5,910 bases of DNA from Bacillota bacterium (GTDB lineage Bacteria; Bacillota; Clostridia; Christensenellales; CALWSW01): NCBI GenBank assembly GCA_023402915.1, contig JAEYFO010000239.1, forward strand, positions 1 through 5,910. The letters are read 5' to 3'. Shown here one piece after another: positions 2 to 5,909 of this stretch. The position numbers were made by a program, and so were the translations under genes. The first letter of the stretch is position 1. Every line of letters starts with the position of its first letter. Below the pieces are notes generated by a model. That model saw only the letters and a program-made list of their open reading frames with translations, had not been told where the DNA came from and searched no databases.

Positions 2-601
2 TGCGGCGTCGATCTGGTGCGCAGCGGCGAGCTGGACATCATGAACCCCGAGGGCGGCATCGACGTGAGCCACCATAACCTCAAGGCGCTGCAATTCGGC
101 ATCGCGAGCCTGCACCGCCCGGCCATCGAGGACGGCGGCGTGGAGCGCAACACCGCGGCCTATCTGGCTGTTTTGAAGGACCCGGTCATCGATATTCTCG
201 GCCATCCCGACCGCCCGGCCTACCCCTGCGACGCGCGCACGGTGGTCAAGGCGGCGCGGGATGCGGGCAAGCTCATCGAGATCAACAACCATTCCATCGA
301 GCATTACCGCGACCACACCGACACGCTCGAGCTGATCCGCCTGTGTAAGGAGTACGGCGAGCGGGTCTGCGTGTCGAGCGACGCGCATTTTTGCGGACAG
401 GTGGGCGCGGTCTCTCTGGCAATGGCCATGCTTGAGGAGCTGGACTTCCCCAGGGAGCTGATCGTCAATTTGCGGGCGGCGGATTTTGAGGCGTATCTGG
501 CCGAGCGGACGGCGCGCATCGAGGCGGCTCTGGCCGCAGGCGTGGACGTGTACCGCAAGGATTTTGACATCGAGCCGATCTACCGCTATCCCCGTCCCTG
601 A
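2..601 (+). CDS. PHP-family metal-dependent phosphatase (YcdX-like), 5' end outside window
   Basis: The reading frame is open from the window edge to the TGA at 599-601, so the N-terminal metal-binding HxH part is missing and about 199 residues remain. PHP-domain enzymes hydrolyse phosphoesters with a cluster of metals held by His, Asp and Glu. Ligand positions known from E. coli YcdX are recognisable in order: the Glu of GELDI (codon 29-31), the His of SLHRP, the His of LGHPDRP, the INNHS segment, and the Asp/His pair of SSDAHF. The C-terminal part (DFPRELIVN and what follows) also aligns with the YcdX layout. The natural substrate is not evident; histidinol-phosphatase-like names are common for this family but cannot be supported here. 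A GTG at 17 is internal, since the homology extends upstream of it. A terminator follows after about 20 bases, so this gene ends its transcription unit. Family assignment is solid, exact function is not. Confidence 0.88.
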   Translation, partial: CGVDLVRSGELDIMNPEGGIDVSHHNLKALQFGIASLHRPAIEDGGVERNTAAYLAVLKDPVIDILGHPDRPAYPCDARTVVKAARDAGKLIEINNHSIEHYRDHTDTLELIRLCKEYGERVCVSSDAHFCGQVGAVSLAMAMLEELDFPRELIVNLRAADFEAYLAERTARIEAALAAGVDVYRKDFDIEPIYRYPRP

Positions 602-1002: not shown

Positions 1003-2139
1003 TTGCGGGTTCTTCACATTGCAAACACGTGGTTTTTCGTGGAGCGGCTGCTTTCGGGCAAGCTGGAAGGGCTGCGGGACGCGGGCTGGGACGTTCATGC
1101 CGCCGCGCCGGTCCCGGAGGAAAAGCGCGGCGCCCTTCTGCCCTGCTGGTTCCATCCGCTGCCCATGGCGCGGGACATTGCGCCCTTTTCCGACGGGCGG
1201 ACGCTGCTTTGCTGCATGAAGCTCCTTTCGGAGGGAAACTACGACCTCGTTCACACCCACAGCGCCAAGGCGGGATTTCTCGGGCGGCTGGCGGCGTGGC
1301 TTTGCGGCGTGCCCTGCGTGCATACGGTGCACGGCCTGCCGTTTTACGAGGGGCAGCCGGCGCTCTCCCGCACCCTTTGCCGGGCGCTCGAGTGGCTGGC
1401 CGCCCACTGGTGCGAGGGGATCTTGTCGCAAAATAGCGCGGATCTTTCCGCCCTGCGGGCGCTGAACGTCCTGCCGCCGCAGCGGATTTTTTACGAAGGA
1501 AACGGATTGAATCTGCCCCAAACGGCGCGGGTTGCCGCCTGCCGAAGCGACATGCGGGCGGAGCTGGGCCTTTCGGAAACGGACGTAGCCATCGGGCTGC
1601 TGGCGCGGCTGGAACCGGTCAAGGATCACCGGACGTTTCTTCGCGGGTTTGAAGAGCTTTGCCGCAGGGACAAGCGCGCCGTGGCCGTGGTGGCAGGCGG
1701 AAATTTTGGCCGCAGCAGCGAATACGCCCGGGAGACGCTCCGGCAATATGAATCGAGTCCTTTCAAGGGGCGCATCCGTCTGCTGGGCTATCGGAAAGAC
1801 CCCTGCCGGGTGCTTTCGGCCTGCGACATTCTGGCGCTGACGTCGGAAAAAGAAGGACTGCCGCGGGTCGTGATGGAGGCGATGACGCTGGGGCTGCCCG
1901 TGGCGGCGACGGACGCGCCCGGCACGCGGGAGCTGGTGCGAAACGGCGTCAACGGGCTGCTGGTTCCGGTGGGGAATCCTCACGCGCTTTGCGAGGCGCT
2001 TGAGCGGCTTTCAGCCTCCCCTGCCCTTCGTGCCCGGCTGGGAGCGGCGGGCGAACGGTTTGCCTGGCGGGAACTGAGCGAAAAGCGGGTTCTTTCCCGG
2101 ATACTTTCGGCATATGAATCCATCGTACCCTCCAGTTGA
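1003..2139 (+). CDS. GT4-family glycosyltransferase (CapM/EPS type)
   Basis: The 378-residue product has the two-domain GT-B layout. Residues 1-7 (MRVLHIA) form the opening strand. The N-terminal acceptor domain runs to about 180 and contains HTHSAKAGFLGRLA (from residue 84) and HTVHG (107-111), both typical of capsule and exopolysaccharide GT4 enzymes. The C-terminal donor domain starts near ETDVAIGLLARLEPVKDH and carries the family's E-x7-E element at E284 and E292 (EGLPRVVME), followed by GLPVAATDAPGTRELV and NGVNGLLVP, which contact the nucleotide sugar in this family. No signal peptide or membrane segment is seen, so it should act on the cytoplasmic face of the membrane. The start is TTG with a well-placed AAGGAG. 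rmlA and rmlC lie downstream on the same strand, which suggests, without proving, a rhamnose or other dTDP-sugar donor. Donor, acceptor and linkage cannot be read from the sequence. Length is normal for the family. Confidence 0.9.
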   Translation: MRVLHIANTWFFVERLLSGKLEGLRDAGWDVHAAAPVPEEKRGALLPCWFHPLPMARDIAPFSDGRTLLCCMKLLSEGNYDLVHTHSAKAGFLGRLAAWLCGVPCVHTVHGLPFYEGQPALSRTLCRALEWLAAHWCEGILSQNSADLSALRALNVLPPQRIFYEGNGLNLPQTARVAACRSDMRAELGLSETDVAIGLLARLEPVKDHRTFLRGFEELCRRDKRAVAVVAGGNFGRSSEYARETLRQYESSPFKGRIRLLGYRKDPCRVLSACDILALTSEKEGLPRVVMEAMTLGLPVAATDAPGTRELVRNGVNGLLVPVGNPHALCEALERLSASPALRARLGAAGERFAWRELSEKRVLSRILSAYESIVPSS

Positions 2140-2396: not shown

Positions 2397-3248
2397 GTGA
2401 AGGGAATTTTGCTTGCGGGAGGCCGCGGGACGCGGCTGTATCCGTTGACGCGCGCCGTGTCCAAACAGCTGCTGCCCATCTACGATAAGCCCATGGTTTA
2501 CTATCCGCTGTCCGTTTTGATGACGGCGGGTGCAAGGGACATTCTGCTCGTGACCAACCCGGGCGACGCGGGGCAGTTTCGGGCGCTGCTGGGCGGCGGT
2601 GAACGGCTGGGGGTGAAAATCCGCTACGCCGTGCAGCCCTTCCCGCTGGGCATTGCGGACGCGCTGCGCATCGGAGAAGAATTTCTGGAAGGTCAGCGCT
2701 GCATTTTGGCGCTGGGAGACAATCTTTTCGTGGGCGGCGGGCTGGAAACGGCGCTGCAAAAAGCGGCGGCAGAGCCGGACGCGGCGATTTTCACCGTGCC
2801 TGTCAAGCGGCCGGAGCAGTTCGGCGTGGCGGAAGTTTTGCCGGATGGAACGGTGTGTTCACTCGAGGAGAAGCCGCGCTGTCCCCGCAGCAATCTGGCC
2901 GTGCCGGGGCTGTATTTTTATCCGCCGGACTGTGCGGCGCGGGCAAAGACCCTCCGCCCTTCCGCCCGGGGCGAGCTGGAGATCACCGATTTGAACCGGC
3001 AATATCTTCAGGAGGGAAGGCTCAAAGCGATTCCGCTTGCCGGCGTGCGCTGGCTGGATACCGGAACGTGCGAGGGGCTGCTCGCGGCGGTCAATCTGGT
3101 GGCGCAGGAGCAAAAGGCCGGGCGGCTGGTGGGCTGCGTGGAGGAGATCGCCCTGCAAAAGGGCTATATCAGCCGGGAGGACGTCGCGCGCCTGTCGGAG
3201 GAGTTGAGCGGGTGCGAATACGGCCAATGTCTTCGCCGCTGTTTGTAG
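2397..3248 (+). CDS. rmlA: Glucose-1-phosphate thymidylyltransferase (RmlA/RfbA)
   Basis: The enzyme joins dTTP and glucose-1-phosphate to give dTDP-glucose and pyrophosphate, the first step towards dTDP-L-rhamnose. The 283-residue product is of normal length. Residues 6-18 hold the nucleotide-binding signature LAGGRGTRLYPLT. VSKQLLPIYDKPMVYYPL follows at 21-38. D108 (LGDN) and D221 (WLDTGT) match the two metal-binding aspartates of Pseudomonas RmlA (D110, D225). EEKP is at 157-160 and SARGELEITDLN at 189-200. The C-terminus (EYGQCLRR) also matches short-type RmlA. Two stretches are atypical: the loop QPFPLGIADAL (80-90) in place of QPSPDGLAQAF, and VGGG (112-115) in place of YGHG. Both lean towards the wider sugar nucleotidyltransferase family, so strict dTTP/glucose specificity is not certain. 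The start is GTG. rmlC begins 10 bases after the stop. rmlB and rmlD are not in the window. Confidence 0.93.
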   Translation: MKGILLAGGRGTRLYPLTRAVSKQLLPIYDKPMVYYPLSVLMTAGARDILLVTNPGDAGQFRALLGGGERLGVKIRYAVQPFPLGIADALRIGEEFLEGQRCILALGDNLFVGGGLETALQKAAAEPDAAIFTVPVKRPEQFGVAEVLPDGTVCSLEEKPRCPRSNLAVPGLYFYPPDCAARAKTLRPSARGELEITDLNRQYLQEGRLKAIPLAGVRWLDTGTCEGLLAAVNLVAQEQKAGRLVGCVEEIALQKGYISREDVARLSEELSGCEYGQCLRRCL

Positions 3249-3252
3249 GAGG
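3246..3252 (+). promoter_or_regulatory. rmlC Shine-Dalgarno site fused to the rmlA stop codon
   Basis: TAGGAGG contains the rmlA stop TAG (3246-3248) and an AGGAGG (3247-3252), 6 bases before the rmlC ATG. Ribosomes ending on rmlA are therefore placed directly on the rmlC initiation site, which favours coupled translation. Confidence 0.8.
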
Positions 3253-3258
3253 GACGCG

Positions 3259-3798
3259 ATGTTTCGATTCGAACCGATGGAGATCGAAGGGGTCTGGAGC
3301 ATTTGTCCGGAGCGGTTTGACGACGCGAGGGGTTGCTTTTTTGAAGTGTTCGTTCCGGATGAACTGGAAAAAATCGGGATACGCTTCCCGTTTTTTCAGA
3401 TCAATCGTTCCGTTTCGCGCCGAGGCGTGCTGCGAGGGCTGCACGAACAGTTTCCCCCGCAGGCCAAGCTGGTTTCCGTGGCGAAAGGCAGGATTTTTGA
3501 CGTGGCGGCAGATGTTCGCCCCGGTTCCTCGACCTATGGGCGGCACGTCCACGCGGTGCTGGACGGCGAAAGCGGCCGGATGCTCTACATTCCCGAAGGG
3601 TTCGTCCACGGGTTTCTGGTGCTGAGCGAGGAAGCGGTCGTGACGTATGTTTGCAGCGCGCCCTATGCCCCCGGCGGAAGCGGCGGCGTGCGCTGGGACG
3701 ATCCTACGCTGAACATTTCCTGGCCGGAGCAGCCGGCGGTGCTTTCGGAAAAAGACCGCGCCCTCCCCTTTCTGGAGCAGCGGCGAAGGGCGTTTTGA
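3259..3798 (+). CDS. rmlC: dTDP-4-dehydrorhamnose 3,5-epimerase (RmlC/RfbC)
   Basis: This cupin enzyme epimerises C3 and C5 of dTDP-4-keto-6-deoxyglucose, the third step of dTDP-L-rhamnose synthesis. The 179-residue product is of family length. Catalytic residues known from Salmonella RmlC (H63, K73, Y133, Y139, D170) have counterparts in H62 of GVLRGLH, K70 of QAKLV, Y130, Y136, and D166 of LSEKD. Other conserved blocks are DDARGCFFE (21-29), FDVAADVRPGSSTYG (80-94), YIPEGFVHGF (110-119) and GGVRWDDP (142-149). The usual DNHS motif reads INRS (48-51), and the glutamate usual after the second tyrosine (xPxxE) is a serine (S141). Those are substrate-pocket or nearby positions, so modest divergence of specificity is possible, but the active site is intact. 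It directly follows rmlA and probably shares its transcript. Its last codons resemble repeats in the spacer that follows. Confidence 0.93.
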   Translation: MFRFEPMEIEGVWSICPERFDDARGCFFEVFVPDELEKIGIRFPFFQINRSVSRRGVLRGLHEQFPPQAKLVSVAKGRIFDVAADVRPGSSTYGRHVHAVLDGESGRMLYIPEGFVHGFLVLSEEAVVTYVCSAPYAPGGSGGVRWDDPTLNISWPEQPAVLSEKDRALPFLEQRRRAF

Positions 3799-3965
3799 GC
3801 GATTGAAATTTTCAAAAAAATACGGCCGTGCGGAAAGGCAAAGCCGGTTCAGAACAAGGGGCGCGGGAAAAGGCTGTGGTCGCTCCTTGCGCTTCTTTCG
3901 AAAAAAACACGCAACTTTTTGCGCTCTTTTCAGAAAAAAGACCGCGCTCTTCTCTTCGGATGGCA
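3799..3965. other. Spacer after rmlC with imperfect repeats
   Basis: No gene is supported here. An imperfect hairpin pairs CAAGGGGCG (3855-3863) with CGCTCCTTG (3881-3889, one G-T), but only a mixed CTTCTTT stretch follows, so it is at best a poor terminator for rmlC. Two similar segments, 3889-3912 and 3921-3947 (GCGCT, then a TTTC-like run, then an A-run, then ACnGCGC-like), lie 32 bases apart and resemble 3739-3761 near the end of rmlC. Confidence 0.45.
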
Positions 3966-4029: not shown

Positions 4030-5391
4030 TCAGTTTCCGCTGGAGCCCTGGGAGATGATGGCTTTTTCCGTCGCTTCGATCTGGTTCATGTCGCCAATGG
4101 TGAGCGTGATATCCAGCTCTTCGCCGTCGCGCCAGACGCGAAGCAGAATGTCGTCGCCAACGTTTTTCGCCTTGACAAGGCCGGTCATCTGGCTGAAGGA
4201 CTCCACTTCCATGCCGTCCACGCCGATAATGATGTCGTCGACCATCAGTCCGGCCGCCTCCGCCGGGCCGCCCACCTTGATCGTCGTGACGAGCACGCCC
4301 CTGGGCGCTTTCCACTCTTCCGCGTCGATCTGCGTCATTTCGTAGGCCATGATGCCCAGCGCGGGACGGGGCACGTAGCCGTATTGAATGAGCTGCTCCA
4401 CCACGGGCAGCGCGTCGCTGATGGGGATGGCGTAGCCCAGGCCCTCCGCCGTGATGGCGTTGCCGTAATCGTCGTACCCTGCCACGACGGTTTTGAGGCT
4501 GCAAATGCCGATGACATAGCCCTGCGCATTGATGAGCGCGCCGCCGCTGTTGCCGGGATTGATGGCGGCGTCCGTTTGGATGTAGATCTGATTTTTGCCG
4601 TCAGTGTTCACCTCGCGGTTGACGGCGCTGACGATGCCCTGCGTCACCGTGCCGGACAGCGTGCCCAGCGGGTTGCCGATGGCGACGGCCAATTCGCCTG
4701 CGCGCACAGTGGCGGAATCCCCCAGCGCCGCAGGGGCCAGTCCGGTCACGTCCGCCTTGAGCACAGCCAGATCGACCGAAGGATCCGTGCCGATGACTTC
4801 GGCGGGATAGTCTTTCCCGTTGGCGGTAATATAAACCACGTCGCAGTCTGCGATGAGGTGGTTATTCGTGACGATATAGCCGTCGGACGTCAGGACGATG
4901 CCCGAACCGGCGGAGAGATCTTCCTCAAGGTCACGGTTGGTGGCGGAGCTGTAGACATAGACCTTTGCCGTGACGCTCACGATGGACGGGCCGACCTTTT
5001 CCGTGATGTCCACAACGGGATTGGCCGGATCGATCTCCGGCGCAGAGGCGCTGCCCAGCGTGGGAAGCGGAAGTTCGGCGCGGTACGGCGTGGGTGTGGG
5101 AAGCGCCGCTTCCGGCGTGGGCGATTCGTCCGGAGAGACGCTCTGCGTGGGCGCGGGCGTGGCCTGTGGATGGGCCGTAGGCTGCGCGGGAGAAAGGCCG
5201 GGCAGCGCAAGAGCGCCGGAGGAAACGAGCGAAAACACCAGCGCGGCGGTCAGCGCGCCGAGCACGAAGCAGAAAAGCGCCGTGCAAAGCAGGCTGCCCC
5301 AGCCGAAGCGCTTTTGCTTTTTCGGGGGCTGCGGCAGCTGCTGGTCGAAGGAATAGGGACCGAAAAAGTCCATTTGATTGTTGTCCTGCAC
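4030..5391 (-). CDS. htrA: HtrA/DegP-type membrane-anchored serine protease with PDZ domain
   Basis: HtrA proteases degrade misfolded proteins outside the cytoplasmic membrane. The 453-residue product has a polar cytoplasmic N-terminus (1-32), one hydrophobic segment at about 33-63 that should anchor it, then a Pro/Thr/Ala-rich linker (about 64-112) that would span the wall zone. The trypsin-like domain (about 126-335) has a complete catalytic triad: H178 in TNNHLI, D207 in DLAVLKAD and S282 in GNSGGAL. GLGYAIPIS (317-325) closes it. One PDZ domain covers about 343-432 (ALGIMA, then GPAEAAGL, DDIIIGVDG). This is the usual layout of Gram-positive HtrA. The start is GTG at 5391, set by AGGAGG at 5399-5404 (7-base gap); the next Met, residue 7, is too far from it. 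The kinase stop is 11 bases upstream, so the two genes should be co-transcribed, and a strong terminator follows. Substrates are unknown. Confidence 0.95.
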   Translation of the reverse strand: MQDNNQMDFFGPYSFDQQLPQPPKKQKRFGWGSLLCTALFCFVLGALTAALVFSLVSSGALALPGLSPAQPTAHPQATPAPTQSVSPDESPTPEAALPTPTPYRAELPLPTLGSASAPEIDPANPVVDITEKVGPSIVSVTAKVYVYSSATNRDLEEDLSAGSGIVLTSDGYIVTNNHLIADCDVVYITANGKDYPAEVIGTDPSVDLAVLKADVTGLAPAALGDSATVRAGELAVAIGNPLGTLSGTVTQGIVSAVNREVNTDGKNQIYIQTDAAINPGNSGGALINAQGYVIGICSLKTVVAGYDDYGNAITAEGLGYAIPISDALPVVEQLIQYGYVPRPALGIMAYEMTQIDAEEWKAPRGVLVTTIKVGGPAEAAGLMVDDIIIGVDGMEVESFSQMTGLVKAKNVGDDILLRVWRDGEELDITLTIGDMNQIEATEKAIISQGSSGN

Positions 5392-5398
5392 GAAAAGA

Positions 5399-5405
5399 CC
5401 TCCTA
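5399..5405 (-). promoter_or_regulatory. htrA Shine-Dalgarno site fused to the kinase stop codon
   Basis: Read on the minus strand, TAGGAGG contains the kinase stop TAG (5405-5403) and AGGAGG (5404-5399), 7 bases before the htrA GTG. It supports the GTG start and probable translational coupling of kinase and protease. The same arrangement occurs between rmlA and rmlC. Confidence 0.8.
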
Positions 5406-5909
5406 TTGGTGGGTTGCTGGTTCTTCGGAAACGGCGGAAGGCTGATGGCCGGGCTGATCCGCGGGTTCTTTAGAGCCGCCGGAATGGCGGCGTTTGTGCC
5501 TGCCTGCGGGTTCTTCGGAAACGGCGGAAGGCTGATGGCCGGGCTGGCCGTTTGGTTTTTCAGGCTCGGCGGAACGACGGCGTTTGTGCTTGACTGCGGG
5601 TTTTTCAAGCTCGGCGGGAAGTTGGCGCACAGATCGAACGCCGGGTTCTTCAGAGCCGTCAGGATGGCGGCGGCCGGACAAATGCCCGTTTTCCCGCAGC
5701 GGTTTTTTGGCCGGGAGAGGCAGCGTGAGCGAAAACTCCGTTCCCTCGCCAAAGACGCTGGAAACGGTGATCTCTCCGCCGTGCTGTTCGACGATTTTTT
5801 TGACGATGGAAAGGCCAAGACCCGTTCCGCCGTCGTTTCGGGGCGTGTGCGCTTTTTCGACCTTATAGAACCGCGTCCAGATCTGGTCGAGATCCTCCGC
5901 CGGGATGCC
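5403..5909 (-). CDS. Sensor histidine kinase, C-terminal part, with repeat-rich tail (5' end outside window)
   Basis: The frame is open from the window edge to TAG at 5403-5405, giving 168 residues. It has no ATG, GTG or TTG codon before 5681, as expected for the interior of a gene. The first 65 residues are the end of a HATPase_c domain: GIPAEDL of the G1 box, the F-box-like [12 protein letters not shown], the G2 box [19 protein letters not shown], and the closing strand [10 protein letters not shown]. This is typical of membrane-bound kinases that phosphorylate a response regulator. The sensor, HAMP and phospho-acceptor His regions lie outside the window. Unusually, the protein does not stop after SLTLPL but continues for 103 residues (5406-5714) rich in Pro, Glu, Gln, His, Lys and Arg, mostly 15-residue tandem repeats. 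The tail matches no domain I recognise. htrA follows after 11 bases, so the kinase may sense envelope stress, by analogy with other htrA-linked two-component systems. Confidence 0.88.
5415..5456. repeat. 42-base direct repeat, copy 1
   Basis: This stretch is identical to 5505-5546 at 41 of 42 positions, differing at 5418/5508 (T versus G). The copies are exactly 90 bases apart, two 15-residue units, so the reading frame is kept. The sequence between them is much more diverged. Confidence 0.9.
5505..5546. repeat. 42-base direct repeat, copy 2
   Basis: This is the partner of 5415-5456 and encodes the same [14 protein letters not shown] stretch of the kinase tail. The near identity at nucleotide level, including third codon positions, points to a recent duplication or to gene conversion. 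Confidence 0.9.

Follow-up and report, generated by a model that had tools for sequence, protein, structure and literature searches.

WalK (YycG/VicK) is a sensor kinase of Gram-positive bacteria in which a disordered extension follows the HATPase domain. In the available text of one report (PMC9087282), the disordered tail of Streptococcus mutans WalK is 18 residues long. WalR binding depends on this tail, and both phosphotransfer and phosphatase activity are lost when it is mutated. The same text describes streptococcal WalK tails as 13-22 residues long and acidic with an invariant Trp, and states that the KdpD tail is also required for signalling (PMC9087282). A second group of described systems links a sensor kinase to an HtrA-type protease, as in the secretion-stress system CssRS-HtrA of Bacillus subtilis and Streptomyces according to the portions of the sources available. 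CiaRH-HtrA is a stress system in which a sensor kinase is likewise linked to an HtrA-type protease. To our knowledge no repeat tail is known for CssS or CiaH.

The window, meaning the whole stretch of 5,910 nucleotides that was analysed, contains the 3' end of a sensor histidine kinase gene, which is followed directly by htrA on the same strand (Table 1). By analogy, this linkage recalls the CssRS and CiaRH stress systems. Like WalK, the window kinase has an extension after its HATPase domain, here predicted to be disordered. The WalK tail is short and acidic and contains Trp, whereas the window tail is 103 residues long, of mixed charge, without Trp and built as a tandem repeat. Because the W-acidic/WD motif given for WalK in the available text (PMC9087282) is absent from the window tail, which has no aromatic residue anywhere in its 103 residues, the tail as judged by its sequence is not of the WalK type. 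No repeat-tailed kinase was found in the literature surveyed, some of which was available in part, and no wider claim is made.

Table 1. Features of the 5,910-nucleotide window and of the kinase-htrA junction
Feature	Position	Strand	Basis or remark
PHP-type protein gene, end only	2-601	+	
GT4 glycosyltransferase	1003-2139	+	
rmlA	2397-3248	+	Pfam/NCBIfam matches
rmlC	3259-3798	+	Pfam/NCBIfam matches
htrA	4030-5391	-	HtrA/DegP-type serine protease: Trypsin_2 and PDZ (Pfam/NCBIfam), membrane anchor by eye
AGGAGG, htrA Shine-Dalgarno	5399-5404	-	Sequence; putative ribosome-binding role
Kinase stop TAG	5403-5405	-	Sequence; overlaps htrA Shine-Dalgarno
Tandem array	5403-5672	-	Six gap-free 45-nt units (89 residues and stop); 90-nt higher-order period
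Non-repeat residues (14) after last strand	5673-5714	-	Aligned by eye with 15-residue end of P0241
Kinase HATPase_c, C-terminal part	5715-5909	-	PF02518 and PDB sequence matches
Sensor histidine kinase, last 168 codons	5909-5403	-	Gene runs off window

The rmlA and rmlC genes (2397-3798; dTDP-rhamnose synthesis) adjoin the GT4 glycosyltransferase gene and converge on htrA. The genes identified in the window include neither rmlB nor rmlD. Ahead of the glycosyltransferase gene there is a 400-nt stretch (602-1002) with many GAAAA runs and a low G+C content (0.446 vs 0.60-0.65 in five genes). Between the convergent ends of rmlC and htrA there is a short hairpin (3909-3924) with T runs on both sides, which is possibly a two-way terminator.

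The kinase fragment matched PF02518 (HATPase_c) as a partial domain over residues 1-66 of its 168 residues (61.4 bits, cut-off 26.4). The best PDB sequence matches (YycG, SrrB and VicK-type) stopped at residue 65-66, and a YycG chain was the top match among solved structures. The NCBIfam model HK_WalK gave 75.3 bits against a cut-off of 725, for a query limited to the C-terminal stretch of the kinase that lies in the window. Beyond SLTLPL, the last HATPase strand, the kinase frame continues for 103 residues from 5714 down to its stop. This bore out the sequence-only reading of a sensor kinase whose tail is built of repeats and longer than usual.

The 15-residue units described in that reading are real, but their number is six whole units and not 5.7, because positions 5672-5642 match 5492-5462 at 87% over 31 nt. 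The stop codon is the last codon of the sixth 45-nt unit. The natural period is 30 residues, formed by two alternating 15-residue types. Self-match within the tail was 0.524 at lag 45 and 0.604 at lag 90, compared to approximately 0.28 ± 0.03 in shuffled tails, with maxima of 0.360 and 0.365, respectively (1000 dinucleotide shuffles for each lag). TRF reported a period of 90 with a score of 268. No gap is needed to align the six units, despite 9-24 differences per 45 positions between pairs and a minimum spanning tree of 64 substitutions. The closest pairs were units 4/6 (9 differences), 1/5 (13), 2/4 (13) and 3/5 (14), and all other pairs had 15-24 differences. The longest exact repeat in the array is 38 nt. 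Outside the array itself the window contains no significant copy of it (the best such match has E 0.063), which ruled out a dispersed element within the window. Viral contigs had no match for the 38-nt array word, the kinase fragment or HtrA.

The tail contains 19 K/R, 14 D/E, 8 H and 15 P among its 103 residues, a net charge of +5 or 0.049 per residue. The Pro noted as invariant is present in 6/6 repeat units. The alternation of basic and neutral halves is not the full picture; the tail is a near-neutral charge mix, because an S/L/P-E/K-E/K-P motif is likewise present in all six units. AlphaFold2 placed no helix or strand after residue 62 of the fragment, with pLDDT of 51-60 in ten-residue blocks from residue 71, for an input of half a domain and a thin alignment of 12 sequences (the fragment and 11 relatives; mean pLDDT 59.5). 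The tail is predicted to be disordered, in agreement with the original expectation, although a model of this kind is weak evidence.

Kinase relatives among proteins were obtained with two queries. For a query of full-length size the best 120 of 1197 proteins were used, and these are not a random kinase sample because the window's own tail lay in the scored region. Among the matches listed, scored-region coverage of at least 50% was confined to P0245 (79%), P0243 (62%), P0305 (60%), P0276 (56%) and P0258 (50%). P0305 and P0276 carry receiver domains and P0258 has a tail of 19 residues. Of the best 120 kinases (of 1197), 101 end within 20 residues and 10 have tails longer than 100, all 10 with a receiver domain. 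Outside the receiver-domain group the longest tails among the matches listed were 77 residues (P0245), 46 (P0293) and 38 (P0243). For the 168-residue fragment query the best 120 of 149 proteins were used; no match covered more than 50% of this query, and coverage was chiefly in the HATPase part.

P0241 was the nearest full-length kinase among the matches listed, with 82% identity across the portion of the HATPase domain that aligned. It ends after 15 residues, LPPAAKKAVREPSPPSGS ('...PSGS'), level with the start of the array in the window. P0243 and P0245 have HAMP, HisKA and HATPase_c domains according to a precomputed table. Like the window kinase they have a charged C-terminal extension, which is also free of aromatic residues; unlike the window tail, theirs showed no tandem repeat by eye. 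Homology of the window tail to the tails of P0243 and P0245 was rejected, the alignments lying within shuffles (p 0.40 and 0.17, respectively). Long tails thus occur in the clade, with sequences that do not match.

A set of 85 genomes with kinase relatives was assembled from all matches in three genome searches with overlaps removed. The searches matched 24/28, 50/382 (E 1e-88 or better) and 29/30 genomes. No relative above 49% (HtrA) or 43% (kinase) was found in the genome searches. The kinase tail was 1-17 residues long in 85/85 relatives, and with the 101 of the best 120 proteins this supports the reading that the window tail is unusually long. In 73/85 relatives the kinase is followed within 500 nt by an htrA gene of the same orientation. 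Of the 12 others, six have less than 1000 nt of sequence left and six have room but no htrA. Among 29 kinase loci htrA was found downstream in 13 by motif and in 22 by profile search, and the profile figures were used. The kinase-htrA gap was 38-132 nt in 60/73 relatives and -49, -20, -17, -14, 6, 30, 134, 135, 138, 170, 245, 267 and 305 nt in the remaining 13, all of them minima as they were measured to the earliest possible start codon. A contig scan with the HtrA alignment gave at least 80 further loci at 33-43% on a generic protease motif, and these are left out of the kinase counts.

In loci L090-L094 a regulator-like ORF (by eye), the kinase and htrA are in line. In L095-L098, four of the nine HtrA-centred loci and outside the 85, no kinase precedes htrA. 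Its place is taken by an ORF with CSxASGSSGN near its start. This ORF resembles WalJ/YycJ, which would make the order walJ-htrC-like.

In the window 11 nt separate the kinase and htrA, and AGGAGG is located 7 nt ahead of the htrA GTG start at 5391. The position of the array in this junction and the overlap of the kinase stop with the ribosome-binding site were both absent from the sequence-only reading. The closest HtrA relatives were P0121 (96% identity) and P0122 (73%), and others had 58% (named Christensenellales) and 56%. Going by the names of such relatives, the window may come from an uncultured bacterium of Clostridia type, perhaps one of the Christensenellales. The htrA start position is common to the window, P0121 and P0122. 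P0241 (contig 237,882 bases) and P0122 (237,864) are probably partners. Within HtrA, a Pro/Thr/Ser-rich linker (5060-5175) between the membrane anchor and the protease differs in length among aligned relatives.

At 103 residues the window tail breaks the limit of approximately 17 residues seen in the htrA-linked kinase group, as do those of P0243 and P0245. The long tail of the window was taken as a derived difference from this group. Since the tails of relatives are 1-17 residues, P0241 ends at the array start and the longer tails of two cousins are non-repetitive, the tail would be a clade-specific growth at the kinase-htrA junction. The reading that we regard as probable, if narrowly so, is that the kinase frame extends beyond the ATPase domain by 103 codons, across six 45-bp repeats which occupy the place of the short spacer seen in most relatives, forming a tolerated, flexible and charged extension that is predicted to be disordered and likely arose by in-frame duplication.

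It is rather unlikely that the tail is a selected interaction module, in which the basic patches (KHKRRRS, RHKRRHS) would keep a binding partner (the response regulator, membrane lipid or nucleic acid) close to the kinase, in the manner of the WalK tail. Such a role would be in keeping with the function of the 18-residue disordered tail of S. mutans WalK in the available text (PMC9087282), with the gap-free array and with the charged tails of P0243 and P0245. The tail, however, lacks the Trp-acidic motif and any aromatic residue and has a net charge of only +5, and the end of P0241 is 15 residues, within the range of all 85 genome relatives. The array copies also gave no sign of preferential conservation at the protein level. 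Compared in the kinase frame, the two 90-nt copies gave a dN of 0.262 and a dS of 0.268; four of the five other frames had a lower dN/dS ratio. The mean BLOSUM score between units was 1.33 in the kinase frame vs 1.63 and 1.56 in the other two same-strand frames. The proposal that the basic clusters are a binding element was not supported, given the charge, the conservation and the short end of P0241.

Synonymous codon choice in the tail scored -0.335, below all 99 overlapping comparison windows from five other genes (mean -0.052, minimum -0.264). GC3 was 0.57 in the tail and 0.72 in the HATPase part, vs 0.79 ± 0.05 (minimum 0.65) in the comparison windows. Read in the kinase frame, the tail had codon log-odds of -0.17, compared with 0.00 for the next frame. 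Because codon, GC3 and frame scores do not single out the kinase frame, a frame error was kept alive as a rival. In this rival, an ordinary stop would be masked by an indel or by a sequencing or assembly error close to the end of the kinase, and the array would be intergenic repeat DNA. There is an out-of-frame TGA at 5661-5659, about where P0241 ends. The openness of the kinase frame is weak evidence against an error, as the tail can be read without a stop in three of its six frames, and 8% of shuffled sequences are open in the kinase frame. An error is nevertheless unlikely. The kinase frame aligns with P0241 up to the array start and its stop falls on the htrA Shine-Dalgarno sequence, whereas the other open minus-strand frame extends approximately 460 nt into htrA. 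Six diverged units are also retained without any gap. Usual sequencing reads are longer than 38 nt, and collapse of copies is unlikely because the longest exact repeat is shorter than such reads.

It is very doubtful that the array is a repeat-length switch within a stress-sensing operon, in which gain or loss of 45/90-bp units would set the length of a disordered bristle while the stop is kept on the htrA ribosome site, and strains would tune the kinase and the coupled protease by slippage. It is highly improbable that the array regulates htrA as a nucleic-acid element, be it a hairpin, an attenuator or a recombination hot spot, with the protein tail as a by-product. The array is immediately 5' of htrA, but the junction RNA has no folding advantage over shuffles (z 0.32; 60/100 shuffles fold as well), and RNA structure was rejected as an explanation of the array. 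The sole terminator-like hairpin within it is on the opposite strand, and the window has no significant second copy.

The dN/dS, frame, codon and GC3 measurements argue for the tail being young or weakly constrained coding sequence. A tolerated flexible extension is favoured over a conserved binding module because of the net charge of +5, the lack of aromatic residues, the predicted disorder, the near equality of dN and dS, the atypical codons and a kinase frame that is no better conserved than others. For this tolerated extension, the ancestor would have had a short tail and a spacer ahead of htrA. Duplication of units at the junction and loss of the old stop would have brought the kinase frame to the htrA ribosome-binding site, and loss of the stop with in-frame 45-nt duplication would be the most economical history. 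We infer that, in the window lineage of a widespread kinase-htrA pair, the spacer was lost and a repeat-built tail was gained. The tail would extend unfolded into the cytoplasm next to the catalytic domain, and its exact sequence may be little constrained except to be stop-free, in frame and soluble. The most tangible effect would be the termination of the kinase and initiation of htrA at one place, with predicted translation coupling of the protease to the kinase.

Several observations sit less easily with a tolerated extension. That so diverged an array has no gaps could reflect selection on the frame, and hence on the protein. The charged tails of P0243 and P0245 are similar in composition and could indicate a shared function, although their alignments are within shuffles. 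Close spacing to htrA is not unique to the window, as gaps of 30 nt or less were found in 6/73 relatives, and the four loci L095-L098 have no kinase before htrA. The absorption of the old spacer is something we infer, and the AlphaFold2 model is limited by its half domain and 12 sequences.

The window would represent a snapshot of a conserved enzyme gaining a long, probably disordered extension as repeats fill the spacer to the ribosome-binding site of the next gene. If the tail matters for signalling, the window kinase would have a functional C-terminal tail over five times as long as that of S. mutans WalK (18 residues). If it does not, it would be a measure of the baggage that the end of a HATPase domain can carry. 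In both cases, the spacing of the operon and the length of the protein would have changed together.
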